A stretch of 64,000 bases of DNA, from the NCBI RefSeq assembly GCF_026683955.1, contig NZ_CP113343.1:248001-312000 (forward strand). Direction: 5' to 3'. Under the pieces are notes generated by a model. It was not told the origin of the DNA, did not search any database, and saw only the letters and a program-made list of their open reading frames with translations. This DNA comes from Arthrobacter sp. MMS18-M83. GTDB lineage: Bacteria; Actinomycetota; Actinomycetes; Actinomycetales; Micrococcaceae. Of the stretch, positions 17,416 to 33,279 are shown piece by piece (positions within the stretch are counted from its first letter, which is position 1; each line of letters begins with the position of its first letter). Made by a program: the position numbers and the translations under genes.

Positions 17416-18354
17416 TCAGTCGCGGACGGCCACGAGGCGGCCAACGACCTCGCCGCGCTCGAGTTTCTGGACGCCTTCGCCGATCTCGTCGAACGAGATG
17501 GTGGTGATGTTGGCCTTGAGCTTGCCCTCGCTGATGAGCTTAAGCACCGCAGCGCAGTCCTCCTGGGTACCGGCTTGGGACCCGACCAGGGTGAGTCGGG
17601 AGAGTGTCAGACGCTGCAGGTTAAGTGTGCCCTCCGGGCGGCCCAGCCCGACCTGGACGACCTTGCCGTCGGGACGGACCGCCTCTATGGCGCCTGCGGT
17701 CGTCGTTCCGAAGCCGGCGTAGTCGATGATGACGTCAAGGTCCTTGTCGGCGAATTCGCGGATGTCCTTGGCGACGGCGGTCACGCCGAGTTCCCTGCCC
17801 AGGTCCCAGACCTTTTCGTTGACCTCGGCCGCGTAGACCTGGGCGCCGGCACCAACACAGACCTGCACCGCGAGGGATCCAAGGCCGCCCAGCCCGATGA
17901 TGCCGACCTTGTCGCCGGCCTTCACGCCGCCGACCGTCATGGCGGCGTGGTACGCCGTCATTCCGGCGTCGGTCGCCGCGGCGGCCTGGTCGAAGGAAAC
18001 CCCGTCCGGCACCGGGATGACGAACCTGGCTGGGGTGAGGACCTTCTCGGCGAATCCGCCGTCCATGCTGGTTCCAGGCGTGGGGATATCGCAAGGGATG
18101 GCGACACGCTGACCCGTCGCAAACCCGGTGACGTCGGGTCCGACCGCCGAGACCACGCCGGCAATTTCGTGCCCGAGCGTGATCGGCCGCTTGGGCAGGA
18201 GCCCGGACAACGTTCCGTCGAGGAATCCGACGTCGCTGTGGCAGATGCCGGCGCCCTTGACGTCCAGCACCAGCTCCCCCGGCCCGGGAACCGGGGCCGG
18301 AACATCATGCAGCTCCAGCGGGTGGTTCTCGGTAACGAACTGCCAAGCCTTCAT
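17416..18354 (-). CDS. Zinc-type medium-chain alcohol dehydrogenase, short form
   Basis: 312 aa, shorter than the usual 340-350. GroES-like half: GAGICHSDVG (Zn Cys), LGHEIAGVV (His-Glu), and IPCDIPTPG where the structural-zinc four-cysteine lobe is missing, which explains the length. Rossmann half: GIIGLGGLGSLAVQ (about 165-178). It oxidises an alcohol with NAD. It is the last gene of the long minus-strand block that contains the P450, after the VOC gene, so it may oxidise the P450 product or a later alcohol. Confidence 0.88.
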   Translation of the reverse strand: MKAWQFVTENHPLELHDVPAPVPGPGELVLDVKGAGICHSDVGFLDGTLSGLLPKRPITLGHEIAGVVSAVGPDVTGFATGQRVAIPCDIPTPGTSMDGGFAEKVLTPARFVIPVPDGVSFDQAAAATDAGMTAYHAAMTVGGVKAGDKVGIIGLGGLGSLAVQVCVGAGAQVYAAEVNEKVWDLGRELGVTAVAKDIREFADKDLDVIIDYAGFGTTTAGAIEAVRPDGKVVQVGLGRPEGTLNLQRLTLSRLTLVGSQAGTQEDCAAVLKLISEGKLKANITTISFDEIGEGVQKLERGEVVGRLVAVRD

Positions 18355-18439
18355 GACCGTCTCCTTTGCAGTGAACGTCCGTGGCTCAGGTTATCCCCGC
18401 GTCGGGGCATCCTCAATGGGTCGCGCACGATCTCAACGC

Positions 18440-18901
18440 TCAGGAGACGAGTTCCTGGTAACTGGTGCTCACGAGTTCCACCGGAGTTCCCCATGGGTCT
18501 TCGCAGTAACGTACCCTGGTGCCCGACGCAGTGATGTGTATCTGGCTTCGGGTGCGGCCGCCCAGTGCAACGAGTTTCTCGACTGAAGCGTCAAGGTCCT
18601 CCACGGTGAAGGCAAGGTGGTGGATTCCTGCTTTCCAGTATTCAAAGTGCTCGTCCCGATATTCGACGGCGGGTTCGACGAATTCGAAGAGCTCGATGCC
18701 GACGCCGGACCCGTCGCTTAAGTGGGCGAGCCGCATGTGCTTCCACTTTTCGCCGAACACGTCCTTGCGACGATCAGCTGCCGCCGTTTGGATGCTGGCT
18801 TCGTGGGGCGCAACGAGTAGCGTCAGGTTGAACAGTTCGCTGTAGAACTCGACGCCGGCGTCGATGTCGCCGACCGTGATTCCTATGTGATTGACCAGCA
18901 C
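18440..18901 (-). CDS. VOC (glyoxalase/bleomycin-resistance fold) protein
   Basis: 153 aa from GTG 18901 with AAAGGA eight bases upstream. Two beta-alpha-beta modules: VNHIGITVGDIDAGVEFYS at the start and GIHHLAFTVEDLDASVEKL in the second half, followed by RVRYCEDPWGTPVELVST, giving the paired His/Glu metal site of VOC enzymes. Candidate roles are lyase, isomerase (such as methylmalonyl-CoA epimerase-like) or dioxygenase. It lies 13 bp after the MFS gene and is probably in the P450 operon. Reaction unknown. Confidence 0.8.
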   Translation of the reverse strand: MLVNHIGITVGDIDAGVEFYSELFNLTLLVAPHEASIQTAAADRRKDVFGEKWKHMRLAHLSDGSGVGIELFEFVEPAVEYRDEHFEYWKAGIHHLAFTVEDLDASVEKLVALGGRTRSQIHITASGTRVRYCEDPWGTPVELVSTSYQELVS

Positions 18902-18914
18902 TGCGGTGTTCCTT

Positions 18915-20120
18915 TCAGTCGATTTGCCCGGCGTACAAAGAGGCACGCCGAGGTTGGGTCTTTATGCGTTGCAGCCCCGCACCAAAACACAGAACTGCGG
19001 CTGGGACGACGAGGGCACTAAGGACTGTCCACATTCCGGTGATATTGCCCAGCGATCTCACAACAAGTCCGGACCCGAACACGAGAATGGCGCACGCTCC
19101 ATACGCGACGCAGGAGTACACGGATGTCCCCACCCCCTGCTGTCTGGGGGTCAATCCCGCCATCACGATCCTCATCCCGGTCCGATAGCCGAGTCCCTGT
19201 CCGATGCCCGCTATCCCACACCCCGCAATCACAAGGGGAAGGGACACCACTGTGAGTCCCAGCACCGCCACAAGGCCTCCTGCAGCGATCGACAGCGCGG
19301 AGATGACCGTCGCCCACCTCATGGAGGCTCGGGCCAGCGAGTACTGCCCGATGTTGGCGAGAACGAGCATGCTGATGGAGGCCGAGTTCGCCAGAACCAG
19401 CGATGTCGACTCAAAGGCGATCGTGGCCGAGAGTGGGACTAGTGCGACGACCAGGCCGCCAACGGTGAAGGCCATTGATCCGAGCAAGTAACCGATCCAC
19501 AGGGGTGGGCCGGGCGCTTCCGCGGTCTCTGACACTCTGCCGGCATCCACGGGTAGGGATCGAGTCCGGGACGGCCTCAGGCCCACGCCCACCATCGCAA
19601 CGGCCGCGGCGGCGAGGACGAGATGGACGCCGAAGCCGGTGATTAGCGGGTCGGGAGCGAATTCGGCTACCAGGACGGCACCGCCGGTGCCGCTCAGGGC
19701 TCCGACAATGGTGACGGTTGCGACCATGGTGCGTCCGCGCTCACCTATAAGGGCCAGGGTGAGGGTGGCCGCGGCGCCGGCACCGAAGCCGAGGCTGATT
19801 CCGCTCAAGGCGCGTCCTACCAGTAGCCCGGGAAGACTGACCGTCAGATAGGCCACGTCCGCGGCCATCGTGGCCATCAGGCCAAGGAACAAGAGCAGTA
19901 CCGGATGGGACTGAATCCGGTGAATGGTCATAACCAGGAGCACCGGAACGAGGGCGATCAGGAAGACGCTATATACCGCCGAAAGGTCGGCGACCCCCAG
20001 TCCGAGCTGCCGTCCATAGCTCGGAAGCAAAGGTGTGGCGAGCTGGGTACCGATTCCGACCGTGAGGAACGCGAGCCCAACGATGCGGGCGAGGGATGAT
20101 GCATCGCCGCGCGACTTCAC
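18915..20120 (-). CDS. Major facilitator superfamily transporter in the P450 operon
   Basis: 401 aa, about 12 membrane helices; N-terminal TQLATPLLPSYGRQLGL and GRALSGISLGFGAGAAATL are typical of drug/metabolite:H+ MFS carriers. It lies 18 bp downstream of the HtaA-like gene. It may import the P450 substrate or export an intermediate; direction and substrate cannot be told. Confidence 0.82.
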   Translation of the reverse strand: MKSRGDASSLARIVGLAFLTVGIGTQLATPLLPSYGRQLGLGVADLSAVYSVFLIALVPVLLVMTIHRIQSHPVLLLFLGLMATMAADVAYLTVSLPGLLVGRALSGISLGFGAGAAATLTLALIGERGRTMVATVTIVGALSGTGGAVLVAEFAPDPLITGFGVHLVLAAAAVAMVGVGLRPSRTRSLPVDAGRVSETAEAPGPPLWIGYLLGSMAFTVGGLVVALVPLSATIAFESTSLVLANSASISMLVLANIGQYSLARASMRWATVISALSIAAGGLVAVLGLTVVSLPLVIAGCGIAGIGQGLGYRTGMRIVMAGLTPRQQGVGTSVYSCVAYGACAILVFGSGLVVRSLGNITGMWTVLSALVVPAAVLCFGAGLQRIKTQPRRASLYAGQID

Positions 20121-20138
20121 AGGGGTCGTGGTTTCTTT

Positions 20139-20681
20139 TTAGGGGCCATTGACGGGGTCCTTGGCCATCAGGACCAGAGGGTCAAAAGCGGTGCCTTCCG
20201 CATATACGTCCCCGAAGAGTCCCACGCCCGACCAGGCGAGCAGTGGAGTGAACGTGGACGAGCCGGCAGGGAGCTTCCCGGGGGAATTCGCCGGCACCAA
20301 ACGGGCGATCCGACGACGCCGGGACTCGTCCGTTATGTCGGCGGTATCGGCTATCGTCAGCCACAGTCCCTCTGAGCTGGCCTCGATCGCCGGTTCAGCC
20401 AGGATGACAGTCATCATGCCGCCGTGGGCGCTGAAAGCCACCCCGCCGGCGAACCGGACCGTATCCGGCGAATGGTCGCCGGCGGCTCGAGGAAACGTGA
20501 ACGCCTCACCCGTGACACCGGCCGGGACGACGATCGCCGTCTTGCCACCGGAGTTCTTCACGTAACTCAGGAAACTGGCTTTGACGCCCCAGTGCATTGC
20601 GCCGGCAGACGCGGGCACGAGGGGGTGGGCGCGGACCATCCCGTCCTGCTTGCCGGTGCCCGCATCTGCAGTGTTGTTCAT
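20139..20681 (-). CDS. HtaA-domain-like protein without signal peptide
   Basis: 180 aa from ATG 20681, one base after the ferredoxin stop (TAA C ATG), so probably translationally coupled. The whole protein follows the HtaA haem-binding domain pattern: HWGVKASFLSYVKNSGG (about residues 30-46), VRFAGGVAFSAHGGMMTVIL with the domain's GHxG-like His, LAEPAIEA, and a C-terminal FGDVYAEGTAFDPLVL. HtaA proteins are normally secreted or surface haem binders; this one has no signal peptide, membrane anchor or sortase motif and should stay in the cytoplasm. Its place between ferredoxin and carrier genes in a P450 operon suggests haem supply or binding of a hydrophobic substrate (inference). Confidence 0.7.
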   Translation of the reverse strand: MNNTADAGTGKQDGMVRAHPLVPASAGAMHWGVKASFLSYVKNSGGKTAIVVPAGVTGEAFTFPRAAGDHSPDTVRFAGGVAFSAHGGMMTVILAEPAIEASSEGLWLTIADTADITDESRRRRIARLVPANSPGKLPAGSSTFTPLLAWSGVGLFGDVYAEGTAFDPLVLMAKDPVNGP

Positions 20682-20682
20682 G

Positions 20683-20895
20683 TTAGCTCGCGGCAGAATG
20701 AAGGATGATTGCCGCAACAGGGCACACGTTGGCTGCCTTCTCGACAACCGCTTCGTCGCCGGGCGCAACCTGTGGGTGGAGCAGGATGACCGTACCGTCC
20801 ATGGGGTCTTGGTCAAAGAAGTCCGGCGCTACTTCGACGCAGTTTCCTGCGCCCATGCAGCGCTCGTGGAGCACCTCAATTGTCTTGTTTGCCAT
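20683..20895 (-). CDS. [3Fe-4S]-type ferredoxin for P450
   Basis: 70 aa. Cys 13, 19 and 58 in CMGAGNC ... NVCPVAA give the Cys-x5-Cys ... Cys-Pro pattern of single-cluster [3Fe-4S] ferredoxins that serve actinobacterial P450s. Small and acidic. It lies 56 bp after the P450 gene and carries electrons from the FAD reductase (22959-24173) to the P450. Confidence 0.93.
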   Translation of the reverse strand: MANKTIEVLHERCMGAGNCVEVAPDFFDQDPMDGTVILLHPQVAPGDEAVVEKAANVCPVAAIILHSAAS

Positions 20896-20951
20896 GATTT
20901 GCGTCCTCTCTGAATGTGTTGGATGTCCGTATGACATCTATGTGGCTTCGG

Positions 20952-22160: not shown

Positions 22161-22182
22161 GACGGCTCCTTTCGTGAATGGG

Positions 22183-22962
22183 TCAGTAGCCCTTGCCTGC
22201 GGTCCAGCCGCCGTCGGCATTGATGATCGTTCCATTGATGAAGCGGGCCGCGGGCGTACAGAGGAAGACGACCGCAGCTGCCACGTCCTCCGGTTGTCCC
22301 CAGCTTCCGGTTGGCGTTCCCGCGATGATCGCCGCAGATTCGGGTCCGGTGCGCAGGTATTCGGCGTTAATAGGTGTTTCGACAATCCCCGGCGCGACGC
22401 CGTTGCATCGGATGCCGCGTCCCCCCAGTTCGACGGCTATCGACTTCGTGAGCATCACGAGGCCCGCTTTGGATGCGTTGTAGGCGGAACGGTTCTTGAA
22501 GGCGAGGTCGGCCGCCACCGAGGTGACGTTCACGATCGAGCCGCCGCGACCGCTGCTCAGCATGGTGCGCACCGCTCCCTGGGCGATGAGAAACGGGGCG
22601 GTCAGGTTGAGGTCGAGCGTGCGCTGCCAATCGTCGAGCGGGTAGTCCTCGAAGGAGTGCACTCCCCTGCGTCCGGCGTTGTTGACGACGATGTCAAGCG
22701 AGCCGAAGTCCGCGGCGACCCTGTCGGGCAGCGCCGCGGCCTGCTTCAGGTCGCCCAGATCGACGGCGTAGGGGCGTACATCCTGGCTTTCCCCGCCAAG
22801 GCTCGCGACGGCGTCTGCCAACAGCTCGTCTTGGATGTCTATGAGGGCAACACGCGCCCCTTGTGCGCGCAGACCGGCTGCAATGCTCAAGCCGATGCCT
22901 TGGGCTGCGCCGGTGACCAGCGCGACGGTGCCTTCGAGGGCAGGATGAGGCGCCATCATCAT
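22183..22962 (-). CDS. SDR dehydrogenase in the P450 operon
   Basis: 259 aa. TGAAQGIGLS (cofactor), DVRPYAVDL, NNAG (about residue 92), YNASKAGLVML with catalytic Tyr-x3-Lys (about 157-161), and a C-terminal INADGG. It overlaps the reductase stop by 4 bp upstream and lies 22 bp before the P450, hence co-translated with the electron chain. Likely oxidises the hydroxylated P450 product to a ketone (inference from position, by analogy with camphor and cineole routes). Confidence 0.9.
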   Translation of the reverse strand: MMMAPHPALEGTVALVTGAAQGIGLSIAAGLRAQGARVALIDIQDELLADAVASLGGESQDVRPYAVDLGDLKQAAALPDRVAADFGSLDIVVNNAGRRGVHSFEDYPLDDWQRTLDLNLTAPFLIAQGAVRTMLSSGRGGSIVNVTSVAADLAFKNRSAYNASKAGLVMLTKSIAVELGGRGIRCNGVAPGIVETPINAEYLRTGPESAAIIAGTPTGSWGQPEDVAAAVVFLCTPAARFINGTIINADGGWTAGKGY

Positions 22963-24173
22963 GAGGCCGGCTGACGGAGCGAAGCGAAATGAGCCGTCAC
23001 ATCATGGATGGGCGCTCGTTCAAGCACGAGATTCCGGAACTGGAATATCGACGCTCCAGCGGCCATTCCCGCAACGCTCAGAAGCCTGCCCTCCTTCAGA
23101 TACGCAACGAAAAGGCGCTCTGGATCACCGTCAAGGACGACGGCCTGGTCATGCCCAAGGTTGGATCCGATGCTCTGGATACGGCTCCCGTACTGTTCAG
23201 ACCAGAAGTAGGGTGCGCTGACGAAACCGCCGGCGTCATGGGTGCCAAGCAACCGCTTGGCCGCATAGGTGCCCTGTTCGACGGCGTTCGTCCAATGCTC
23301 GACGCGCATGAGGCGTTCGTAGAGCGGGTTATGCCATAGCGCGATATCACCGGCGGCAACGACATCTTCCGTGCCGGCTACCGAGCACGTCGTATCGCAA
23401 ACCAAACCGCGTTCGACGTCGAGATTGCTGTCAAGAAGCCAGTCAACAGCGGGAACAGATCCGATGGCAACGAGCACAACATCGGCGTCCAGTGAATCGC
23501 CGTTTGAGAGGTGAACCCGCCGGATCGATCCCGACGCGTGCCCTTCCAGCTCGCGGACGGTCTGTCCGAGAACGAAACGAACGCCCTCATTCTCATGCTT
23601 CGCCTGTAGCGCGGCGCTGAAGGTCTGCCCAAGAATGTGAACAAGGGGTGCCTGCATTGGTTCAATGACGGTGACCTCCTTCCCCAGCTTGCGTGCCACG
23701 GAGGCAACCTCAAGTCCGATGAATCCGCCGCCCACGATGACGACACGCTGGGCCTCGGCCAGGTCCCCACGCATGTTGTGGGAGTCCGCCCAGGTGCGCA
23801 GGGAGTGGACACCGCCGAGCTGGGCGAACGGTGACGGGCGCGCCATTGTGCCTGTTGCAATCACGAGGCCATCGTACTGCTCGGCGAAGGGCCGGCCGTC
23901 GGCATGTATGCCGCGAACGGTTCGCCGCTCCAGGTCGAGGCCCTCCAACCCCCCGCTGATGCGTTCGGCGCGCAGTTCGTCCGCCCACCCCATGGCGACT
24001 TTCCCGGCGGGCAGCGCCCCGGAGAGAAGTCCCTTCGAGACCTCGGGGCGGCGGTACGGCACGTGGGGATCGCGGTCAACCGTGAGGAGGCGTCCGCCGA
24101 AACCTCCCTGACGGAGCTCGCGGGCAGCGCTCAGGCCCGCAACTGACGATCCGGCTATGACGATTGTTTTCAT
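22959..24173 (-). CDS. FAD-dependent ferredoxin reductase (P450/putidaredoxin-reductase type)
   Basis: 404 aa. First dinucleotide fold GSSVAGLSAARELR (about 8-21), VPYRRPEVSKGLLSG, ATGTMARP, second fold VIVGGGFIGLEVASVARKLG (NAD), and VVAAGDIALWHN near the C-terminus (FAD). It transfers electrons from NAD(P)H to the [3Fe-4S] ferredoxin. It shares a 4-bp overlap with the SDR and is 3 bp downstream of the ABC permease stop, so the importer and P450 chain form one transcription block. Confidence 0.93.
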   Translation of the reverse strand: MKTIVIAGSSVAGLSAARELRQGGFGGRLLTVDRDPHVPYRRPEVSKGLLSGALPAGKVAMGWADELRAERISGGLEGLDLERRTVRGIHADGRPFAEQYDGLVIATGTMARPSPFAQLGGVHSLRTWADSHNMRGDLAEAQRVVIVGGGFIGLEVASVARKLGKEVTVIEPMQAPLVHILGQTFSAALQAKHENEGVRFVLGQTVRELEGHASGSIRRVHLSNGDSLDADVVLVAIGSVPAVDWLLDSNLDVERGLVCDTTCSVAGTEDVVAAGDIALWHNPLYERLMRVEHWTNAVEQGTYAAKRLLGTHDAGGFVSAPYFWSEQYGSRIQSIGSNLGHDQAVVLDGDPERLFVAYLKEGRLLSVAGMAAGASIFQFRNLVLERAPIHDVTAHFASLRQPAS

Positions 24174-24176
24174 GTC

Positions 24177-25268
24177 TTAGACCTCAACCCTTTTCTCGGA
24201 GACTTGCCCGGCCGGCGGGGCAGATGGGGAGCCCTGCGTGCCGGCTGGTTGCGTTGATGCCGAGAGGGAACCGCCGCCTTGGTTCTTGCCCTTCGACTTC
24301 TCCTTTTTCGGCCGTGACAGCTTCTTGCGGCGGACGACAGCCAGGCCAACGGCCGCGATCAGTGCAACTCCGTTGAACATCGAGGCGACCCATTGCGCTC
24401 CCGAAACCAGCTGCAGGCCCTGTACGCCGGTGGCCAGCACGAAGATGGCGAGCACTGTCCCCCAGACGTTGTGCCGGCCCGGTACCAGCTGGGTGGATCC
24501 GAGGAACACGGCCGCGAAGGCGGGGAGCAGCAGGGAGGGCCCGAAACCGAGGGAGGGACCGGTCAGCGATACGAAAAGCACGCCGGCGAACCCGCAAATC
24601 GTCCCCGAGATCGTCAGCGAGAGGAATGACCACTTGTCGACCTGGACACCCGACAGCCGGGCCGCCTCACGGTCAAAGCCGGTCGCACGCATGTAGCGTC
24701 CCGCCGGGGTGCGCTCAAGGAGCCACCAGACAATGAGTGCGATGACGATCATGTAGAAGAACACCGCTTGGAACCCGAAGATGCTCGTTTGGGTCAGACC
24801 GGTAAAGAATTCATTGTCAACCGGCAGCGGCTCCCGGTTATTGGTCACGATCACCAGGAATGCCTCCAGAATCGATCCCATGGCCAAGGTGGCAATGAAC
24901 GAGTCGATCTTCAGCTTCACCACTATCAGACCGTTCAGCATGCCGATCGCGGTTCCCACCGCAGTCCCCAGGAGGATTGCCCCGACCGGGTCGAGCAGAC
25001 CGTTTGTCTGCACAATGACGGCGAGGATGCCGGAGAAGTTCGCAATGGCCCCGATGGACAGATCGAACTGGCCGGTGACCATGGGCACCAGCAATGCCAG
25101 CGCCACGATGGCCGCGATTGCCTCTGTGGAGGCCAGAAGATGGACCGTGTTCATGGTGGGGAACGTGCGCGGCGCCATGAACGAGAACAGCACGACGAAC
25201 AGACCCCAAAGGTAGAGGCCGCTGAACCTGTCCAAGCCGGGCGAGAACTTTCTTCCTGTCACTTTCAT
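24177..25268 (-). CDS. ABC transporter permease, RbsC-type
   Basis: 363 aa, about 8-10 membrane helices. VTGQFDLSIGAIANFSG is the family's conserved GxxDLSxG segment and GVQVDKWSFLSLTISG the cytoplasmic coupling region. The hydrophilic tail (about residues 315-363; Lys, Ser, Pro, Gly rich) is unusually long. It works with the ATPase (25265) and binding protein (26874). The class carries sugars, but members also import autoinducers and other small molecules; here it heads a P450 operon. Confidence 0.92.
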   Translation of the reverse strand: MKVTGRKFSPGLDRFSGLYLWGLFVVLFSFMAPRTFPTMNTVHLLASTEAIAAIVALALLVPMVTGQFDLSIGAIANFSGILAVIVQTNGLLDPVGAILLGTAVGTAIGMLNGLIVVKLKIDSFIATLAMGSILEAFLVIVTNNREPLPVDNEFFTGLTQTSIFGFQAVFFYMIVIALIVWWLLERTPAGRYMRATGFDREAARLSGVQVDKWSFLSLTISGTICGFAGVLFVSLTGPSLGFGPSLLLPAFAAVFLGSTQLVPGRHNVWGTVLAIFVLATGVQGLQLVSGAQWVASMFNGVALIAAVGLAVVRRKKLSRPKKEKSKGKNQGGGSLSASTQPAGTQGSPSAPPAGQVSEKRVEV

Positions 25269-26815
25269 GAGGTTTCAACCTTTGATTCATTGGAACGGAG
25301 AACTCTGCGATCGAGTTCGGCCACCGAAATGTCACTTCCGGTGAGCTGTTCGGTGATCACCCCTGACCGGATAATGAGGACGCGATCGCACACGGTGGCA
25401 ATCTCTTCTGCGTCCGTGGAACTGATGACAACGGCGGCGCCGGCATCGCTGGCATCGATGATGTGACGGTGCAGTTGAGCCTTCGCGCCCACATCCACTC
25501 CCTGCGTCGGTTCGTCCAGGAGCATGACGCGCGGTGAGATGCGCATCCACTTGCCGATCAGGATCTTCTGCTGGTTACCACCGCTGAAGCTTGCCAGCGG
25601 AGCCTTCACGGCTCCCGCCGGCCGGACCGCGAGCCGGTCCATCCACTGACTGGATTCGGCGAGTTCGGCCTTGATCCGCAGATGACCGCCCCGGAAAAAC
25701 TTCTTCATGGCCGGCAGGGTGAGGTTCTCGCACGCCGTCATTTCCATCAGGCCGCCACCGCGCTTGCGATCGGGAGCGAGATAGGCAACTCCTTTCTTGA
25801 TCGCCGACGAGGGCCGGGCGGCAAGCAGGACCCCATCGACGCGAACGTCACCGCCCTCGCGTTCCCTCGCCCCGAAGATGGTGCCAAGAAGCGATTCCCT
25901 GCCCGAACCGGTCAAGCCGTAAACGCCGACGATCTCGCCCGGCCGCACCTCGAAATCCACCCCTTCGAGTGCATCCCCGCGTAGCCCCGATACCTTCAGA
26001 ACAGGCTGGCCGCCTCCCGAAGGAACGTCGATGCTCTCGCGCCGTACGGGCTCGACAGTTCCACCGACGAGTGCGTGGATGATGTCCTCACGCGGGGCTT
26101 CCGCCACGTCCCTGGTGAACACCACATGACCGTCGCGCAGCACGCTCACCCGATCGGCGAGGCGGAAGACCTCGTCAAGGTGGTGGGTCACATAGAGTAT
26201 GGCCACACCTTGCGAGGCCGCCTTCTTGACCATCTCATGAAGGTGGGCCACCTCTCGTGCCGGAAGCGTGGCCGTGGGTTCGTCGAGAATGAGGACAGTC
26301 ACCTTACCGCCGTGCCGGCTCAGGGCGCGAGCGACGGCGACGCCCGTTCGCTGAGCGGCAGAGAGCTCTGCGACCCGCTTGGCCGGGCTGATGTCCAGCC
26401 CGACCGCTGCGAGGGCCTCAATCGCTTCCCGACGCGACTGCGCACGACGAATCGTGCCGAACCTCGTCGGAAAGCCCGCCCCGATGGCCAGGTTGTCAAG
26501 CACAGTGCTTTCAGCGACGAGCCCGAGGTCCTGGTGGACGATTCGGAGCCCGAGTTCATGCGCGCTCTTCGTGGAACCAAAGTCCAGGGGCTTTCCGGCG
26601 ATCAAGACCTCCCCGCGACCCGGGTCCGGGGCGTGATAGCCACCGAGGACCTTGATGAGCGTCGATTTGCCCGAACCGTTCTGACCCAGCAGCGCGTGGA
26701 TCTCTCCGGGGACCAGGTTCAGTTCGAGCGGGTGGAGCACCGTCCTTGGTCCGAAAGTCTTCGACACACGCGCGATCGAGATCGCAGGAGGCATCACCGC
26801 TGTTGGCGCTGTCAT
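25265..26815 (-). CDS. ABC transporter ATPase, RbsA-type, two nucleotide-binding domains
   Basis: 516 aa with tandem ABC domains. First: GQNGSGKSTLIKVL (Walker A, about 39-52), LILDEPTATLP (Walker B), degenerate signature LSAAQRTGVAVAR. Second: GLTGSGRESL in place of a full Walker A and intact LASFSGGNQQKILIGKWM, MLLDEPTQGVDVG. This asymmetry is normal for the family. It overlaps the permease by 4 bp. Confidence 0.94.
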   Translation of the reverse strand: MTAPTAVMPPAISIARVSKTFGPRTVLHPLELNLVPGEIHALLGQNGSGKSTLIKVLGGYHAPDPGRGEVLIAGKPLDFGSTKSAHELGLRIVHQDLGLVAESTVLDNLAIGAGFPTRFGTIRRAQSRREAIEALAAVGLDISPAKRVAELSAAQRTGVAVARALSRHGGKVTVLILDEPTATLPAREVAHLHEMVKKAASQGVAILYVTHHLDEVFRLADRVSVLRDGHVVFTRDVAEAPREDIIHALVGGTVEPVRRESIDVPSGGGQPVLKVSGLRGDALEGVDFEVRPGEIVGVYGLTGSGRESLLGTIFGAREREGGDVRVDGVLLAARPSSAIKKGVAYLAPDRKRGGGLMEMTACENLTLPAMKKFFRGGHLRIKAELAESSQWMDRLAVRPAGAVKAPLASFSGGNQQKILIGKWMRISPRVMLLDEPTQGVDVGAKAQLHRHIIDASDAGAAVVISSTDAEEIATVCDRVLIIRSGVITEQLTGSDISVAELDRRVLRSNESKVETS

Positions 26816-26873
26816 GGAGAGTCCCTTCTTTTCCTTCGGTCAAATGTTCTGGGCTTGGCTTGCGTGCCGGGTG

Positions 26874-28055
26874 CTACTTGACGCCCCACAGTTTCAGGTA
26901 TTGCTCCAGGGCGCCCGTCGGGTAGTTGTAGGGAACGCTGGTGCCTTTGACGCTTTCCTGGGTGACCAGCTGGAAGGGCAGGACGGAGACCTTGTCGAGA
27001 CCGTCGCTGTGGGTGATGGCGCGCAGGGCGGCATCAACCTGGGAGTAGCCCGCAACAGGGTAGGAAAAGGCGGTCCAGGCGACCTGGGAACCGTCCATGA
27101 GTCCGCCCTGGGCGCCCTGATCCATTGAACGGCCCCCGATCTTGACCTGTCCGTTCAGGCCGGCCGCCTTGAGCGCGGCTGTGATCCCCTTGGAGAACTG
27201 TGCGTTGTCGAAGAAGACGTAGTTGATGTCGGGCTTTGACCGAAGGGTATTCACGACCGTCGGGACGACCTGGTTTTGGCTGACCTGCGTCAGCGTGGAT
27301 TCGAGAATCTGCACGCCGCACGCGGCGCACTTGTCAGTGACCTCCTGCTTGAAGGCCTTCACGAAAGCCTCAAGGGAGGGGATGGCTGGGATGTTCTCGA
27401 ACAGCACCTGGCCCACGCCCTTGGAGTCAGCGATGAACCAGTCGGCCAGCGTCTTCCCGGCGGCTGCTTCTGCGTCACAGCCGACCGCGCCTTGAACGAT
27501 GCTGCCAAGGGGCTGGAGCGGGCACACTGAACCGACGATGAGGGGGATGCCGGCGTCCTTGTACTGCTGAATGACGTCTTCACCGTACGCGGAGACGGGA
27601 TCGCCGCTTATCAGGACGGCCTTGGGGCCCTTCGCGAGGGCGGTCAGCAACGCGGAGCGTAGGGTAGCGGGGTTCGAGCCCTGGTAGGCGAGCTCTTCGA
27701 AGGTCCAGCCGATGGCATCGATGGCCTTGTGTGCGGCATCAACCATAAGCGTCGTCGCCGGAAGGCCGCTGTTCAGGTAGATGATCTTCCCGTGTGCAGG
27801 CAAAGTCCCTTTGAGCGGAATGCTCTGGTTCAGGGTCGTGGGCGCTGCCACGTGTGCGTCGGCGATCGTCTTGGCTGCGGCCAGGTCTGCGGTGGTGGCA
27901 CCCTTTGCGTCTGGGGCACCGCCAGCCGTTGCACATCCAGCCATAAGCAGTGCCGAGGCGGCAACCGCAATGCCCAACGTGAGCTTGCGGAAGGGGCTGC
28001 TTCCCACCCGGGTATTGACTGGGAAGCCAGCTGCGCGTTTCAGTTCTTTGTCCAT
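26874..28055 (-). CDS. Substrate-binding lipoprotein of the ABC importer
   Basis: 393 aa from ATG 28055 (GGAG upstream). Lipoprotein signal: Arg/Lys-rich start, hydrophobic core, lipobox LLMAGC (Cys about 41). The mature part is a periplasmic-binding-protein type 1 fold (IIYLNSGLP, VLISGDPVSAYGED, IPLIVGS, YVFFDNAQFSKGI). Two closely spaced cysteines (DKCAACG) may form a disulfide. First gene of the importer/P450 block; ligand unknown but probably the pathway's growth substrate. Confidence 0.9.
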   Translation of the reverse strand: MDKELKRAAGFPVNTRVGSSPFRKLTLGIAVAASALLMAGCATAGGAPDAKGATTADLAAAKTIADAHVAAPTTLNQSIPLKGTLPAHGKIIYLNSGLPATTLMVDAAHKAIDAIGWTFEELAYQGSNPATLRSALLTALAKGPKAVLISGDPVSAYGEDVIQQYKDAGIPLIVGSVCPLQPLGSIVQGAVGCDAEAAAGKTLADWFIADSKGVGQVLFENIPAIPSLEAFVKAFKQEVTDKCAACGVQILESTLTQVSQNQVVPTVVNTLRSKPDINYVFFDNAQFSKGITAALKAAGLNGQVKIGGRSMDQGAQGGLMDGSQVAWTAFSYPVAGYSQVDAALRAITHSDGLDKVSVLPFQLVTQESVKGTSVPYNYPTGALEQYLKLWGVK

Positions 28056-28352
28056 TGCGAACTCCGTCGTTCGGGCGTCAACAACTGCGTTGACCCTATG
28101 GTTGATTGGGCGGAGTGGTGGCCTCCTGAGACCATCACATTCATACCTACTGTGACAACTATACACATGAATATGAATTGCGTCACTGGTTTTATATGAG
28201 CTACGTCACGGACCTTTTGTGAGCAGATACAGGACCGGGAATGCGTGATACGGCGGTGCCGGCCAGCCCACCAAGCTGCGCCAGATCCGGGTCCCGCCTC
28301 GACTCGTCCCCGGTCTCGAATCGCCAGGATGCCTTGCAGCTCAGCTCCAAAG

Positions 28353-28390
28353 GGATCGGGGGCGGATGCTCTCGCACCCGCCCCCGATCC
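28353..28390 (-). terminator. Hairpin terminator of the CamK-like operon
   Basis: Perfect 13-bp inverted repeat GGATCGGGGGCGG / CCGCCCCCGATCC around a 12-nt loop, starting 30 bp past the stop of the SDR at 28420. The T-tract is poor, as often in high-GC genomes. AT-rich DNA at 28135-28200 beyond it probably contains the promoter of the binding-protein gene. Confidence 0.75.
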
Positions 28391-28419
28391 TCATACAAGG
28401 CAACGCGTCCCGCCCTCGG

Positions 28420-29253
28420 TCAGCGACCGCAAACGTAGTCATCAATCGGCGCGGTATCCCACGCTCCCGCTCCGCCGGTCCCCCGGACGCTGCAGACCTG
28501 GGACGCACCGCCGTCGACGTAAAGGAGCTGTCCCGTGATATAGCTGGACCGGTCGGAGAGCAGGAATGCTGCGGCGTCTGCGATTTCGCCGGGGTGGCCC
28601 GCGCGGCGCAGTGGCACGGTGCCACCACGGCGGAGCAGATTCTCTTGGACGGCATCGATGACGACGCCGTCAAAAGCCTGCTGTGTGGCGATGAGCCCAG
28701 GGGCAATCCCGTTGACACCCACGCCGATCGGCGCACCGTACATCGCCGAACCGCGCAGCAGAGACAGAACGGCTCCCTTGGACGCCTGGTAAGGGATGAT
28801 GTCGTGACTACCGTGTGTCCCGCTAATGGAACAGGTAGCGAGGACCGTTCCGCCGCCGCCCTGCGACTCGAACTGGCGAAGCGCGGCGCGAATACCGAGG
28901 AAGGTGCTGACGACATTCACCTCCATCACGCGACGGAAGTCGTCCAGGCTGAGATCGACAAGGCGCGCCGGACTGCCGACGATGCCCACATTCAGGTGAT
29001 GCATGTCGATGCGGTCGAAGGCATCCAGGCCCGCTGCGATGTAGCGCTCGACGCCCGCCTCTGTGGAGACATCCGCTTGCACGCTGATTGCCCGGCTGCC
29101 ATAGCGCCCCGCGACCGCGGCGGCGTCGTCTCCTTCACGGTCCACGACGACGACCCGCGCACCCGCTCCGACCAAGCGGTCGACCACGGCTTCACCGAGT
29201 CCGCGGCCGGCACCGGTGACCACCGCCACACGGCTTTGGAAGTTCTCCGTCAC
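28420..29253 (-). CDS. SDR-family protein with altered NNAG motif
   Basis: 277 aa. TGAGRGLGEAVV cofactor loop, HLNVGIVG where NNAG normally stands (about residue 87), catalytic Ser region CSISGTHG, YQASKGAVL (Tyr-x3-Lys), and SYITGQLLYVDGG. The tail is about 25 residues longer than usual and ends DDYVCGR. Catalytic residues are kept, so it is probably active. Last gene of the operon headed by the CamK-like crotonase, 15 bp after the CitE-like gene. Confidence 0.87.
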   Translation of the reverse strand: MTENFQSRVAVVTGAGRGLGEAVVDRLVGAGARVVVVDREGDDAAAVAGRYGSRAISVQADVSTEAGVERYIAAGLDAFDRIDMHHLNVGIVGSPARLVDLSLDDFRRVMEVNVVSTFLGIRAALRQFESQGGGGTVLATCSISGTHGSHDIIPYQASKGAVLSLLRGSAMYGAPIGVGVNGIAPGLIATQQAFDGVVIDAVQENLLRRGGTVPLRRAGHPGEIADAAAFLLSDRSSYITGQLLYVDGGASQVCSVRGTGGAGAWDTAPIDDYVCGR

Positions 29254-29268
29254 GCTTCGCGCCCCGCT

Positions 29269-30171
29269 TTATGCGCGTTCGAGGACGAGCCTGGCCACCC
29301 TGTAATCGGGCAACGTGATGACCCGGCCGTTGAGCACAGCAGCCGGCTCACCCCTTGCCACGGTCTCTTCGTACACGTCGCACACCTGGCGCGCCCGATC
29401 CACCTCGGCGGCCGAGGGGCGCATGACTTCATTGATGATGGGCAGGTGGGCGGGCGAGACCGCAATGCAGGCGGTGAAGCCGAGATCGGACCACGTCTGG
29501 ATAAATGCGCGGACCTTCTCGAGGTCCTTGTACTCGGGGATCAGCGAGCCTCCGGTTGCCCACAGCCCGTAGGCGGCAGCTGCGGTGGCGATCTTCGCGC
29601 GTGCATACCCGCTGGTCAGCGACGAGAGCATGCCGTCGGCATCGAAGGGCCGTGAGCCGATGTCGGCGGCGAGGTCGACGTATCCGAAGTGCAGGCCGAC
29701 GACGGCCGGGTGCGCCGCGATGCGGTCGAGCTCAATAAGCGCGCGGGCGGTTTCGATCATCACATGAAGCGGGTGAACCCTGCCTGCGCCACGCATGATC
29801 GCAACGACCTCGTCGAGCTCCTCGACCGTTTCGACCTTCGGGTAGGAGATGACGATATCCGCGTCGACGGCGGCGAGTGCCTCCAGGTCGGCCCGCCCCC
29901 AGGGCGAGCCGATGTTGTTGCTGCGGACTATGATGCGGCGCCCGCCGAAGTAGTCGATGTCTGCGAGCACTTCGATGACCCGTTCGCGTACCCGCTCCTT
30001 GTTTTCGGGGGTAGCAGAGTCTTCGAGGTCGAGCATGATTCCGTCGGCCGCGACCTCCGGAACCTTGGACCAATACTTCTCGTTGAGCACTGGGACCTCG
30101 ATGAGGCTGATCATGCTGGCATATTCCTGGCGCGGTGTGCGTGCGGTCAGGTCTGTGGAGGTTGTACTCAT
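29269..30171 (-). CDS. HpcH/HpaI-CitE-family lyase
   Basis: 300 aa from ATG 30171, which overlaps the hydrolase stop as ATGA; the 415-aa frame running into the hydrolase is spurious. CitE-type marks: IMLDLEDSATPENK, IVRSNNIGSPWG, ISYPKVETVEEL, MIETARALIEL, and GYVDLAADIGSRPF with acidic Mg ligands. The family cleaves or forms beta-hydroxyacyl-CoA thioesters (citryl-, malyl-, citramalyl-CoA). It probably releases a C2/C3 unit at the end of this operon's pathway. Confidence 0.87.
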   Translation of the reverse strand: MSTTSTDLTARTPRQEYASMISLIEVPVLNEKYWSKVPEVAADGIMLDLEDSATPENKERVRERVIEVLADIDYFGGRRIIVRSNNIGSPWGRADLEALAAVDADIVISYPKVETVEELDEVVAIMRGAGRVHPLHVMIETARALIELDRIAAHPAVVGLHFGYVDLAADIGSRPFDADGMLSSLTSGYARAKIATAAAAYGLWATGGSLIPEYKDLEKVRAFIQTWSDLGFTACIAVSPAHLPIINEVMRPSAAEVDRARQVCDVYEETVARGEPAAVLNGRVITLPDYRVARLVLERA

Positions 30172-31019
30172 GGTTGGTCGCCTTCCGCGAAGAAGTCCAG
30201 GAGGGAGTCGGTGAACTGTTTGGGCTGCTCGCGGGGGATGTAATGGCCGGTCTCGAACCATTCGACCCGCACGTCGGGCATGACCTGCTGAAGACGGTCG
30301 ATGATGGGCTGGTCCAGGACGTTGCTGGTGCGCCCGATCATGTACAGGGTCGGCATGGCCGCCTTCGCCGACATCTCCCACAGGTACTCGCCGTCGGGCA
30401 GGCTCACCGAGCCGGTGATCCACTGCAGGTCCGGGTCGGCCCTGGGCACCAGCTTGCCCGCCCAGTTCCGACGCACCTGGTACTTCACATGCAGGTCGAT
30501 GAACTCCTCGACCCACTCCGGGTGCTGCCCCACGTAGAACTCGCGCACCTCGTTCTCGTCACGGAAACCGCGCAGGTTCGTGTTGCGCTGGATGAAGTCC
30601 CGCATGAACCGCGCACCCTCCACGCTGGTCGCCGGCCCCGCATCCGATAACGCCATCCGCCGCACCTGCCCGGGGTTCTCCCCCGCGATCGCGATCGAGA
30701 CGCGCACCCCGTTGGAGTGCCCGACAAGGTAATAGGGTCCGATGCCCATCTGCTCAAGCAGGCCGGTGACATCGCCGGCGAACGCCCGCACCGCGTAGCC
30801 CTGCGGGGACCAGCTGCTCTCCCCGTGACCGCGCAGGTCCGGGGCAATGACGTGGTACTTCTCGGCAAGACGGCGCGCGATCGGATCCCAGGTGTGGGCG
30901 GTGACGTTCAAACCATGCACCATCACCAGCGGCTGGTTGCCGCGCTTGCCCCACTCCAGGTAATGGATGTCCAGGCCGTTGACCCTGGCCCGGCCCTCTT
31001 GATACTCGTGCGCAGTCAC
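30168..31019 (-). CDS. Alpha/beta hydrolase, copy 2 of an exact duplicate
   Basis: 283 aa, identical to the protein at 6068-6919, with the same GTG start, GAGGAG site, GHSNG elbow and GHYIPREQP His. Here it is embedded in an operon: the Gfo/Idh gene ends 95 bp upstream and the CitE-like gene overlaps its stop as ATGA. That coupling makes this the more natural home of the gene. It may hydrolyse an ester or lactone arising after ring opening by the CamK-like enzyme (inference). Confidence 0.88.
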   Translation of the reverse strand: MTAHEYQEGRARVNGLDIHYLEWGKRGNQPLVMVHGLNVTAHTWDPIARRLAEKYHVIAPDLRGHGESSWSPQGYAVRAFAGDVTGLLEQMGIGPYYLVGHSNGVRVSIAIAGENPGQVRRMALSDAGPATSVEGARFMRDFIQRNTNLRGFRDENEVREFYVGQHPEWVEEFIDLHVKYQVRRNWAGKLVPRADPDLQWITGSVSLPDGEYLWEMSAKAAMPTLYMIGRTSNVLDQPIIDRLQQVMPDVRVEWFETGHYIPREQPKQFTDSLLDFFAEGDQP

Positions 31020-31080
31020 AATGCTCCTCTTTGAGTTGGTCCGGGCTCAACACGCCCGGCAGACCAGCAATTCCATCCTA

Positions 31081-31109
31081 ACTATATGTATGAATCGGAT
31101 ATTTGTCAC
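31081..31109 (-). promoter_or_regulatory. Internal promoter of hydrolase copy 2
   Basis: Same -35 GTGACA (31104-31109), 17-bp spacer and -10 TATAGT (31081-31086) as in copy A. In this place it would be an internal operon promoter driving hydrolase, CitE-like and SDR genes independently of the upstream pair. Confidence 0.6.
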
Positions 31110-31113
31110 CCCT

Positions 31114-32217
31114 TCAAACCACACCCTGCCAACACCTCGTGGCGGCAGCACGCCGGATGACGTCAAGCAGCTCGTGCAACCGCACCGCGTCGTCGAAGTC
31201 GGGGACGTCACCATCTGAGGTCCCGGCCGCTATCGCCCGGTACATCCGCCGCACGCTGGCAGCGGGCCCGGCCAGCGGATCGCCGTCAGCGCCAGGCGGT
31301 TCCTCGGGGGCCGGCAGGACAGACCGCTCCCCCGAACTGCGCGTCTCGACCAGGCTCAACCGTGCCATCTGTATCTGGCCGTCGGGGCTATCCGGCACAA
31401 TCTCCAGTGTGCCCTCCGAGCCATAGACCGTCATCAGGGGCATCCCGGTCGCATGCACACCCAGAACAAACAGTCCAGACAATGTCGCCCCGCCTGCGAG
31501 CGCTCCTTGGATGGCCACCTGGTCGGCCGCGGTCTTGGTTATCCAACGATTCTCGCCTTCGATCGCCACCTTCGGCGTGGCCACGCCAACCTTCGCCAAT
31601 ATCCCGGCGAGCCGCCCGACCGCGAACTCCACGGCATCAAGGGTGTGCGCGGCACGCACGGTCAGCGCCGACAGCCCGTTTCGCTCATCGGCAACCCACT
31701 CCTTGCCGGGCGCCAGCACCGGCGCGCCATGACCCATGCCGGCTGACAAGACATGCACGGCCAGCACGCGGCCGACTCGGCCCCCGTCGACCAACTCGCG
31801 AAGTAGCCGAACTGCGGGTTGCTGCCGCGCCTGCAGGCCGATGATGTGGCGGACGCCGGCCAGCACCGCGTGATCCCGCAGGATCTTGGCTTGCTGGGTA
31901 TTCACCCCGAGAGGCCACTCGCAGTAGACGTCCTTCCGGGCTGCCAGGGCGGCCGTGACGGACTCAAAGTGCTTTGTGACTTTCACAGCGACAGTTACGA
32001 GGCCGACGTCGGTGTCAGCCGCGAGAGCGGCGGCACTTGTATGGGCGCGTCGTGCACCAAATCGTTGGGCCGAGGCGTCCGCAGTAGCTCGTCGCGTTGT
32101 TGACACCGCGCGAAGCGCCACTCCAGGTGTCGCCAGAACGGCTGGAATGTGCGATTCCAGGGCCCATCCGCCGCTGATGCTGGCACCGACAATTCCGACA
32201 CCGAGGTCGCCAGTCAC
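31114..32217 (-). CDS. Gfo/Idh/MocA-family oxidoreductase
   Basis: 367 aa. N-terminal Rossmann domain GIVGASISGGWALESHIPA (about 7-25), VTVAVKVTKHFE, and the family's EKP motif as EWPLG (about 99). C-terminal alpha/beta domain with GLFVLGVHATGMPLM and YGSEGTLEI. NAD(P)-dependent oxidation/reduction of a cyclic alcohol or aldehyde. It overlaps the crotonase by 4 bp, so the two products probably act together. The last few residues are encoded by the 969-bp repeat and may not be the ancestral C-terminus. Confidence 0.85.
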   Translation of the reverse strand: MTGDLGVGIVGASISGGWALESHIPAVLATPGVALRAVSTTRRATADASAQRFGARRAHTSAAALAADTDVGLVTVAVKVTKHFESVTAALAARKDVYCEWPLGVNTQQAKILRDHAVLAGVRHIIGLQARQQPAVRLLRELVDGGRVGRVLAVHVLSAGMGHGAPVLAPGKEWVADERNGLSALTVRAAHTLDAVEFAVGRLAGILAKVGVATPKVAIEGENRWITKTAADQVAIQGALAGGATLSGLFVLGVHATGMPLMTVYGSEGTLEIVPDSPDGQIQMARLSLVETRSSGERSVLPAPEEPPGADGDPLAGPAASVRRMYRAIAAGTSDGDVPDFDDAVRLHELLDVIRRAAATRCWQGVV

Positions 32218-32990
32218 GGACGGGGCGTTTCGTGACCCGACAGCTGGCCGGCCTTCAGCCCACCCATATACCAGTGACCGCTGCCCTCAACACCGAGACC
32301 ATGGCTGAGGCCCTCGTTGAAATTGCGCCGGAACCCGATCGAGGCCGCGGCCTTTGCGTAGCGCAGCATCGCCACGTCTCGGCGCGCCAGATCCCTGGCA
32401 ATCTCCCAGGCACGGTCCATGAGCTTCTCTGCGGGCAGTACCTCGTTGATGAACCCGATCTGCTTTCCCTCCTCGGCGCCGATCACGGACCCGGTGAGCA
32501 GCCAGTACTTGACGCGGGTGGGCCCGAGCAGTTCACCCCACACCAGGTTCACCCCGTCGCCCGGGATGGTGTCACGCAGGGGAAAGTGTGCCTTGTCGGC
32601 AAACTCGGCGTGCTCGGCAGCGAGGACGATGTCGCCCATCACGGGGATCTCGGAATGGATGAGGGCCGGGCCGTTCACGGCCCCGATGATCGGGATTTCG
32701 ACGTCGTTCAGGTTCCGCAACATCCGGCGCCCCTCCCACCAGATGTAGTCCCAGCTGTGGCGGGTAAAACTCGTCACATCCAGCTCAGTGCAGTACACAT
32801 CGCCGGTGCCCGTCAGGATGAGCACCTTCGTGGCATGGTTCTTGCCGACCCAATCGAAAGCCTCGGTGAGCTCAGTGTGGGCCTGGGCATCCCAGACGAA
32901 GGATCCGCCGTTTGTGTGAAACCGCATTTCGGTGACGCCATTGTCGTGAGTGATGCTGATTCGTTCCCAGTGCGGGTGTTCGAAGGTCAT
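32214..32990 (-). CDS. Crotonase-fold hydrolase resembling 6-oxocamphor hydrolase (CamK)
   Basis: 258 aa. Throughout its length it follows Rhodococcus 6-oxocamphor hydrolase rather than ordinary enoyl-CoA hydratases: FVWDAQAH, KVLILTGTGDVYCTELD, EGRRMLRNL, VEIPIIGAVNGPALIHSEIP, AHFPLRDTIPGDGVN. Residues matching that enzyme's Trp40, His122, His145 and Asp154 appear as Trp33, His112, His135 and Asp145, from my memory of the published active site. Such enzymes split non-activated beta-diketones by retro-Claisen hydrolysis, opening a ring. First gene of a five-gene operon. With the P450 and SDRs nearby it suggests bicyclic-ketone catabolism; the substrate may differ from camphor. Confidence 0.82.
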   Translation of the reverse strand: MTFEHPHWERISITHDNGVTEMRFHTNGGSFVWDAQAHTELTEAFDWVGKNHATKVLILTGTGDVYCTELDVTSFTRHSWDYIWWEGRRMLRNLNDVEIPIIGAVNGPALIHSEIPVMGDIVLAAEHAEFADKAHFPLRDTIPGDGVNLVWGELLGPTRVKYWLLTGSVIGAEEGKQIGFINEVLPAEKLMDRAWEIARDLARRDVAMLRYAKAAASIGFRRNFNEGLSHGLGVEGSGHWYMGGLKAGQLSGHETPRP

Positions 32991-33279
32991 CGACCCTTCC
33001 TTTCTATGAAAATGAGTGGCGCAACATCACTTCTCGCCATGAAGATGCCCTCGCGGTCGGGGCGTACCGACGGGGCGATTTGGCCTTCGACACAGCCCCG
33101 GGTATGCACGCGGACATCTGGGCCTGGCCGACTTGCCCCGAAAGCCCGGTCCATCAATCCCAATATAGGCATCAGCCACCCAAACTGCTACCCTTGATTA
33201 TATTCATAGTCATCATTAGACGGTTTTGATTCCATATTCTCGACATCGATGCCGGCTGGCAAATGCATAGGAGCCGAAT
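32991..33279. other. Divergent promoter region between the CamK-like operon and the MmgE/PrpD gene
   Basis: About 290 bp without a gene. An AT-rich block at 33190-33225 contains TGATTATATTC (33195-33205), also found at 41220-41230 ahead of the amidohydrolase operon. Read on the minus strand it includes TATAAT, although the leader to 32990 would be about 200 nt. Confidence 0.45.

Follow-up and report, generated by a model that had tools for sequence, protein, structure and literature searches.

A cytochrome P450 and beta-diketone-hydrolase-type crotonase cluster in Arthrobacter sp. MMS18-M83 and its possible coupling to a CoA-dependent lower route

A 64,000-nt stretch of the Arthrobacter sp. 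MMS18-M83 genome (the window, from whose position 1 all coordinates are counted) carries a string of genes on its minus strand. Running from 32990 down to 17416, the string comprises a crotonase, a Gfo/Idh-family protein, an alpha/beta hydrolase, a CitE-like lyase, a short-chain dehydrogenase/reductase (SDR), the three components of an importer, a ferredoxin reductase, another SDR, a cytochrome P450, a ferredoxin, an HtaA-domain protein, an MFS transporter, a VOC-family protein and a zinc-dependent medium-chain dehydrogenase/reductase (MDR) (Table 1). Several adjacent genes overlap by 4 bases in an operon-like manner, and all of the 30 frames checked are open and stop-terminated. The original prediction, made from the letters of the window, took this string as a candidate pathway for a bicyclic, terpenoid-like ketone with a CamK-like crotonase as the ring opener. 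Its gene inventory proved correct by Pfam, but the system is longer than the extent of 17416–32990 assigned to it, which cut it short. We favour, with moderate confidence, the reading that the window encodes one catabolic pathway in two halves: an upper part of P450 oxidation and ring opening, and a lower part that depends on coenzyme A (CoA). The chemistry is known and the combination of parts is new. What the sequences establish is the family of each protein, the clade and active site of the crotonase, and the fact that both halves are also linked in another cluster of different gene order.

The crotonase (32214–32990) was compared with all solved structures. The highest scores were obtained with 6-oxocamphor hydrolase (OCH; PDB entries 1o8u, 207 bits, and 1szo, 202 bits) and with the Anabaena beta-diketone hydrolase ABDH (198 bits), whereas the best enoyl-CoA hydratase reached 67 bits. 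Residues H38, H112, H135, D145 and E235 align with the three catalytic histidines, the aspartate and the glutamate of OCH and ABDH, so the claim that the key residues of OCH are kept was borne out. The catalytic residues H43, H144, D153 and E243 of ABDH, as named in an excerpt of its description, are likewise kept (PMC3584854). In a 98-row tree, the side that holds the window crotonase, OCH and ABDH (75 rows) is split from the 23 other rows with a support of 100/100, and a histidine at the position of OCH His122 is found in 73 of the 75 clade rows but in none of the 23 others. These 23 include three of the seven host hydratases; the other four (L004, L006, L007 and L008) were left out because a tblastn search with the window protein failed to find them, and the crotonase loci L009–L011, L015–L017 and L019 also stand outside the tree. 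The predicted structure (mean pLDDT 87.3 from 18 sequences) agrees with this grouping: its first seven fold matches are OCH chains (root-mean-square deviation 1.1–1.3 Å), and matches 1–12 are all OCH or ABDH chains (1.1–1.8 Å), ahead of any CoA enzyme. The ECH_1 Pfam domain that is present here would also fit a beta-oxidation enzyme, a CoA-dependent hydratase or isomerase, and the NCBIfam matches listed (25 of 60) are nearly all hydratases or isomerases, though far below their cut-offs. Nevertheless, the score gap, the fold, the residues and the clade split all speak against such an enzyme, which we regard as very improbable. By these comparisons the protein belongs to the OCH/ABDH clade of beta-diketone hydrolases, which are of the CoA-independent type; the phylogeny against CamK and enoyl-CoA hydratases that had been proposed as a check thus came out on the side of the prediction.

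Membership of the clade does not extend to orthology with the camphor enzyme. The window crotonase shares 46% identity with OCH and 42% with ABDH, and its nearest relatives in the tree come from Hydrocarboniphaga (L028) and Sphingopyxis (L024), with a support of 100/98. A tree that forces it into the OCH sub-clade was rejected by the approximately unbiased (AU) test (p = 0.00996). Owing to the shared clade and residues on the one hand and this rejection on the other, the enzyme would work like OCH without being its orthologue; the label 'CamK-like' is apt for clade, fold and residues, but not for descent from CamK. Compared with OCH, which is the CamK of the original prediction, it has the same fold and catalytic residues, but lies in a separate sub-clade and beside a CUT2-type importer and CoA-transferase, MaoC and CitE genes. 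The order of hydroxylation, oxidation and opening is one that we take the camphor route to share with the window cluster. ABDH (Alr4455; PDB entries 2j5g and 2j5s) also has the same fold and the catalytic His, His, Asp and Glu (PMC3584854), but belongs to another sub-clade. No characterized member of the window sub-clade was present among the rows compared, and its enzymes may be of interest as desymmetrizing biocatalysts. If the pathway were plain Rhodococcus-type camphor catabolism and 6-oxocamphor the substrate of the crotonase, the OCH clade and active site would be accounted for, and this view gains from a genome of the same genus (G078) in which a crotonase inside the OCH sub-clade (support 100/97, 57.5% identity to OCH) accompanies a related P450 system (49–55%). 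However, the identity of the window enzyme to OCH, its position outside the OCH sub-clade and its tree neighbours argue against that account, as does the importer: camphor is a volatile lipophile, for which a sugar-type importer should be unnecessary. We consider camphor itself an unlikely substrate.

The most telling result is the pattern of conservation in the G078 genome. This genome contains a diverged cluster of about 28 kb (C2:341.1–368.7 kb) in another gene order, and no collinear copy of the window block was found in the 59 kb examined. A tblastn comparison of 31 window genes gave counterparts there for 17, excluding a weak HtaA match and three unspecific SDR matches. Their conservation is uneven. 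Five genes of the CoA route are 64–82% identical (acyl-CoA dehydrogenase 82%, family III CoA-transferase 81%, MaoC 81%, CitE-like lyase 71% and alpha/beta hydrolase 64%), the P450 system is near 50% (ferredoxin reductase 55%, P450 50% and ferredoxin 49%), and the crotonase and importer lie at about 30–40% (crotonase 40%, ATPase 31% and permease 29%). The cytochrome-b561-like protein (60%), the ETF alpha subunit (59%) and the GntR regulator (58%) are also shared. A separate binding protein was recognized by eye in G078. The two crotonases fall into different sub-clades. Together with the uneven conservation, this makes it probable that a single lower route, dependent on CoA, is supplied by two distinct ring-opening upper parts with different substrates. 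The original prediction had set aside several genes as lying outside the described route; of these, the CitE-like lyase, the hydrolase and the importer type are probably parts of the pathway, since they recur in G078, whereas the Gfo/Idh gene does not recur and the HtaA-domain gene does so at 28%. The latter weighs little, because an HtaA match at E ≤ 1e-6 occurs in 24 of 99 relatives, own genome included. A defined gene set and a second, rearranged cluster are thereby available for the joining of a CoA-free retro-Claisen opening to a CoA-dependent lower route and, if the reading of one pathway in two halves is right, they suggest how bacteria complete the breakdown after a step of the OCH type.

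The distribution of the genes was followed in 199 genomes, many of the same genus and the source genome included. A crotonase match at E ≤ 1e-25 occurs in 11 of these, and the window's version is found at 99–100% in three same-genus genomes. Crotonase (at least 40% identity), P450 (at least 50%) and CoA-transferase (E ≤ 1e-120) coincide in the same five of the 199, own included; the 40% and 50% lines were set after the lists were seen. Two of these genomes, G042 and G106, hold nearly collinear DNA from the window start to about 41.3 kb, and in G053, where the block spans two contigs with a break at the duplicated hydrolase, collinearity was traced between 10.2 and 42.4 kb. The aligned pieces show 90–98% nucleotide identity (mostly 92–98%), except for one 170-nt piece at 85%. 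The 5-kb gyrB loci of the three genomes are about 91.5–92.5% identical to that of the source genome, a level that the block matches or slightly exceeds; there is therefore no support for the view that the block as a whole arrived laterally in recent times, and it looks as if it was inherited or exchanged at ordinary divergence. The block gave no megablast match on plasmids, and no relative was confirmed on viral contigs. Among 396 genomes of the phylum, the CoA-transferase appears at E ≤ 1e-110 in two, one being its own. Two or three unrelated adjacent operons, with the crotonase and the P450 operon serving different substrates, would fit a window dense in catabolic genes, among them an aromatic meta-cleavage set at 43–53 kb, and the fact that gene order differs in G078 with 17 of 31 genes recurring. 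Their joint presence in the same five genomes, the re-linkage in G078 in another order and a shared upstream motif make such a coincidence improbable. As in the original prediction, P450 operon and crotonase thus probably belong together.

The upstream motif is a 15-base AT-rich intergenic sequence, AAYTATATKCATVAA-like, that was spotted by eye and then scanned. Seven window sites score at least 18, namely the six listed in Table 1 and one at 12138; a further site at 2347 scores 16.8 and has no assigned gene. Scores of at least 18 occurred in none of 20 first-order simulated windows and nowhere in 20 other loci (143 kb, some overlapping), which gave two sites at 15–16. The five independent sites are the seeds of the scan, as 6980 and 31080 form one duplicate and 12138 lies inside the first codons of the frame 12117–13586. 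In the collinear genomes, sites 14991, 28157, 31080 and 33196 are kept wherever the stretch is covered, 41221 is down to 17.4, and 12138 reaches at least 14 in G106 only. The best G078 site (L113:604, score 15–16) is flanked by the same two genes as 14991, those for the acyl-CoA dehydrogenase and the acetyl-CoA hydrolase-like protein. This pattern supports, but does not prove, a joint control of the crotonase operon (33196), the importer–P450 operon (28157) and the acyl-CoA dehydrogenase (14991). The GntR gene, being common to the window and G078, is the natural candidate for the regulator; a search for the FCD-type TNGT-ACNA palindrome revealed nothing of note.

The proteins of the upper half conform to known types. 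A P450 with the heme cysteine and the ExxR motif, a small ferredoxin and an FAD-containing reductase in one string make up a class I bacterial P450 system. The cysteines of the ferredoxin follow a C-x5-C ... CP pattern in which the second cysteine is missing, and for this reason the protein is read as the [3Fe-4S] type, consistent with the original prediction. The best solved-structure matches of the P450 are 3tyw, which we take to be a CYP105, and 5y1i, neither of which is listed under a CYP number; CYP105Q4 and CYP105AS1 rank below them. P450s of the CYP105 type are met in the oxidation of terpenoids, steroids and xenobiotics. The importer consists of a Peripla_BP_4 protein, a double-ATPase and a BPD_transp_2 permease; the earlier designation as RbsABC-type is upheld by Pfam as far as the CUT2/Rbs class is concerned, but its binding protein matches RbsB weakly. 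Dehydrogenases of the Gfo/Idh family usually carry an EKP motif. Because the window protein has EWP instead and its best solved-structure match is GAL80, it possibly lacks dehydrogenase activity. A relative of the zinc MDR (55%) lies in an OCH-clade locus of Streptomyces acidicola (L041) and speaks mildly for the MDR being a hydroxyketone dehydrogenase.

We infer the reactions, their order, the regulator and the class of the substrate, a cyclic and perhaps bicyclic ketone, as follows. The CUT2/Rbs-type importer would bring in a polar or scarce cyclic substrate, which the reductase, ferredoxin and P450 would hydroxylate. The alcohol would be turned into a cyclic beta-diketone by an SDR or the MDR, and the crotonase would then hydrolyse the ring open in a retro-Claisen reaction without CoA, leaving a keto acid. 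In the lower half, the family III CoA-transferase would form the CoA ester, the acyl-CoA dehydrogenase would desaturate it and pass the electrons to ETF, and the MaoC hydratase would hydrate the product. Finally, the CitE-like lyases would split off an acetyl-CoA-type unit, the one at 29269–30171 with the alpha/beta hydrolase as its partner.

The nearest known counterpart of the lower half is the itaconate/methylsuccinate set of CoA-transferase, MaoC, CitE-like lyase, acyl-CoA dehydrogenase, MmgE/PrpD and glyoxalase-family genes, whose isomerase is described, in an excerpt of the source, as almost confined to Pseudomonadota (PMC12290011). The families of the Pseudomonas/Cupriavidus cluster, as this excerpt gives them (PMC12290011), are all found in the window, but here the genes are split over several strings and joined to the P450/ring-opening part. 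All five gene families of a Rip-type module lie near one another.

Several results weigh against one pathway in two halves. The MaoC, CitE2 and CoA-transferase proteins miss their NCBIfam equivalog cut-offs (194/340, 177/375 and 210/700 for the RipB, RipC and mesaconate-CoA-transferase models, respectively); since all three fall below curated cut-offs, the lower enzymes probably handle not an itaconate-type acid but a related one, larger or with different branching. The conservation gradient is unclean, with the second CitE (53%), ETF (52–59%) and the acetyl-CoA hydrolase-like protein (51%) no better conserved than the P450 system. The three window SDRs match G078 at an unspecific 31–33%, which weakens the assignment of the dehydrogenase step. 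Ten of the 31 genes lack a G078 counterpart in the 59 kb searched: those for the MDR, VOC, MFS, Gfo/Idh, MmgE/PrpD and Rieske proteins, two amidohydrolases, the reductase at 16245–17240 and, by sequence, the binding protein. One collinear block is common to four of the five genomes, which reduces the independent arrangements to two. Furthermore, the window gene set beside a crotonase is repeated in none of 88 named-genome loci (8 plasmid and 80 genome loci; 68 of the crotonase clade and 20 controls; 25 under 15 kb). A P450 is near 13 of the 68 clade loci versus one of the 20 controls, too few to decide; the 13 include the closest relative, L028, in which P450 and SDR adjoin the crotonase. The corresponding counts are 1 versus 0 for MaoC, 2 versus 1 for CitE, 10 versus 7 for acyl-CoA dehydrogenase and 18 versus 4 for CoA-transferase, and the lower module is not a general companion of the crotonase clade. 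As to the motif, in leave-one-out scans of about 128,000 positions the sites rank 6, 6, 8, 9 and 13, most of the higher-ranking positions being other members, and the seeds were picked by eye from AT-rich DNA and may in part be promoter −10 boxes.

For the substrate, a bicyclic ketone is our leading guess, at somewhat less than an even chance, because OCH acts on one and the P450–SDR–hydrolase order fits. The 'bicyclic terpenoid ketone' of the original prediction is therefore plausible, but as written it is one option among several. Since both arrangements include a sugar-type importer, the substrate is more likely to be polar or scarce, and this favours a different precursor of a beta-diketone (monocyclic, heterocyclic or acyclic) whose polarity would make a CUT2-type importer necessary. 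Crotonase relatives beside xanthine-dehydrogenase-type oxidoreductases or cytosine deaminase show further that the clade is not tied to terpenoids. The class I P450 system and dehydrogenases beside the crotonase nevertheless fit best with the hydroxylate–oxidise–open logic of camphor breakdown, and we hold a non-terpenoid precursor to be a real, if somewhat lesser, possibility. It is also favoured by CurH, a curcuminoid hydrolase of Rhodococcus termed a beta-diketone hydrolase in a title cited in PMC12981152, which shows such activity in an enzyme that may or may not be a crotonase. The relatives just mentioned are L020, L023 and L026, on plasmids of Pseudonocardia, Paraburkholderia and Arthrobacter, and the clade may also serve the catabolism of N-heterocycles. 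A second crotonase type, about 35% identical to the window's, occurs in six same-genus genomes (L013–L017 and L019, in G064, G027, G056, G082, G073 and G106), with no P450-cluster genes in the two 20-kb surroundings inspected (G106 and G064).

If the substrate is a bicyclic ketone, both of its rings could be degraded with a single oxygenase step, a long shot whose chemistry was derived on paper. With a camphor-type skeleton, opening of the first ring would yield an acid made up of a cyclopentanone and an acetic-acid arm. The arm would leave as acetyl-CoA through the CoA-transferase, the acyl-CoA dehydrogenase, MaoC (forming a tertiary alcohol) and a CitE-like retro-aldol lyase, and the remaining cyclopentane-1,3-dione, a second beta-diketone, would be hydrolysed by the alpha/beta hydrolase or by the crotonase again. 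In the Pseudomonas camphor route, according to an excerpt of its description, lactone-forming monooxygenases open both rings (PMC4097962). The CamABCDEFG system of P. putida starts, as the window pathway would, with a P450 system and a hydroxyketone dehydrogenase (PMC4097962), but no gene for a Baeyer–Villiger-type or lactone-forming monooxygenase was recognized among the window frames scanned at 17.4–41.2 kb. If true, the single-oxygenase scheme would replace the Baeyer–Villiger-type oxygenase of Pseudomonas for ring two, and exchanging the crotonase and the importer would direct this lower route towards other skeletons. The open-licence literature listings consulted showed no report of a cluster of this kind.

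Table 1. Genes and candidate operator sites of the cluster, with the basis of each assignment and identity to the G078 counterpart
Feature	Position	Strand	Basis or remark
Cytochrome b561-like membrane protein	3174..4148	-	Pfam score below cut-off; 60% in G078
ETF alpha subunit	4174..5157	-	59% in G078
ETF beta subunit	5189..6052	-	52% in G078
Alpha/beta hydrolase, second copy	6068..6919	-	Duplicate of 30168..31019 gene
Candidate operator upstream of hydrolase copy/ETF genes	6980..6994	+	In duplicated stretch
GntR/FCD regulator, candidate regulator	7828..8610	-	58% in G078
Acetyl-CoA hydrolase/transferase-family protein	13642..14925	-	Start unsure; 51% in G078
Candidate operator between acetyl-CoA hydrolase-like gene and acyl-CoA dehydrogenase	14991..15005	+	
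Acyl-CoA dehydrogenase	15022..16215	+	82% in G078
Flavin/[2Fe-2S] reductase	16245-17240		No G078 counterpart
Zinc MDR dehydrogenase	17416..18354	-	Pfam; 55% relative in OCH-clade locus L041
VOC/glyoxalase-family protein	18440..18946	-	Pfam
MFS transporter	18915..20120	-	Pfam
HtaA-domain protein	20139..20681	-	Pfam; 28% in G078
Ferredoxin, [3Fe-4S] type by cysteines	20683..20895	-	Pfam Fer4_15/Fer4_13; 49% in G078
Cytochrome P450	20952..22160	-	Pfam; 50% in G078
SDR dehydrogenase (SDR1), proposed oxidiser of P450 product to beta-diketone (putative role)	22183..22962	-	Pfam
FAD-dependent ferredoxin reductase	22959..24173	-	Pfam; 55% in G078
CUT2/Rbs-type importer, permease	24177..25268	-	Pfam; 29% in G078
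CUT2/Rbs-type importer, ATPase	25265..26815	-	Pfam; 31% in G078
CUT2/Rbs-type importer, binding protein	26874..28055	-	Pfam
Candidate operator upstream of importer–P450 operon	28157..28171	+	
SDR dehydrogenase (SDR2)	28420..29253	-	Pfam
CitE-like (HpcH/HpaI) CoA-ester lyase	29269..30171	-	Pfam; 71% in G078
Alpha/beta hydrolase	30168..31019	-	Pfam; 64% in G078
Candidate operator upstream of hydrolase	31080..31094	+	Inside duplicated stretch
Gfo/Idh/MocA-family protein, GAL80-like, EWP motif, role unsure	31114..32217	-	Pfam; 4-nt overlap with crotonase gene
Beta-diketone-hydrolase-type crotonase, proposed ring opener	32214..32990	-	Pfam, tree, fold
Candidate operator, crotonase/PrpD intergenic	33196..33210	+	
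MmgE/PrpD-family protein, divergent from crotonase gene	33280..34644	+	No G078-cluster counterpart
SDR dehydrogenase (SDR3)	34939..35808	-	
CoA-transferase family III, proposed activator of ring-opened acid	35900..37102	-	81% in G078
MaoC hydratase, RipB/Ich-like	37165..37695	-	81% in G078
Second CitE/RipC-like lyase	37692..38543	-	53% in G078
Candidate operator upstream of 34939-41188 gene string	41221..41235	+	17.4 in three collinear genomes

The 'duplicated hydrolase' of the original prediction is real: 30168–31139 recurs at 6068–7039 with 99.7% identity over 972 nt, including the hydrolase gene and its upstream motif. Both copies are also present in G042 and G106, and the G053 contigs break at the duplicate; the copies look as if they have been kept alike by gene conversion. 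An 846-aa frame at 13642–16182 was rejected as a single gene, as its upper part is antisense to the plus-strand acyl-CoA dehydrogenase. At 38547–41188, a Rieske ferredoxin-like protein and two Amidohydro_2 proteins are encoded in one string with the CitE, MaoC and CoA-transferase genes; they are present in the collinear genomes but lack counterparts in the G078 cluster. In G042 and G106, collinearity stops at about 41.3 kb, just before the meta-cleavage set (43061–53054), which comprises an HMGL/DmpG aldolase, an acetaldehyde dehydrogenase, two FAD monooxygenases, an extradiol-type dioxygenase and two hydrolases. No other ribosomal genes were found among the frames scanned around 61177–61938, where a 253-aa frame joins an N-terminal domain resembling ribosomal protein L22 to a FeS_assembly_P domain. 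This odd fusion adjoins genes for a ferredoxin reductase, SHMT and an aldehyde dehydrogenase.

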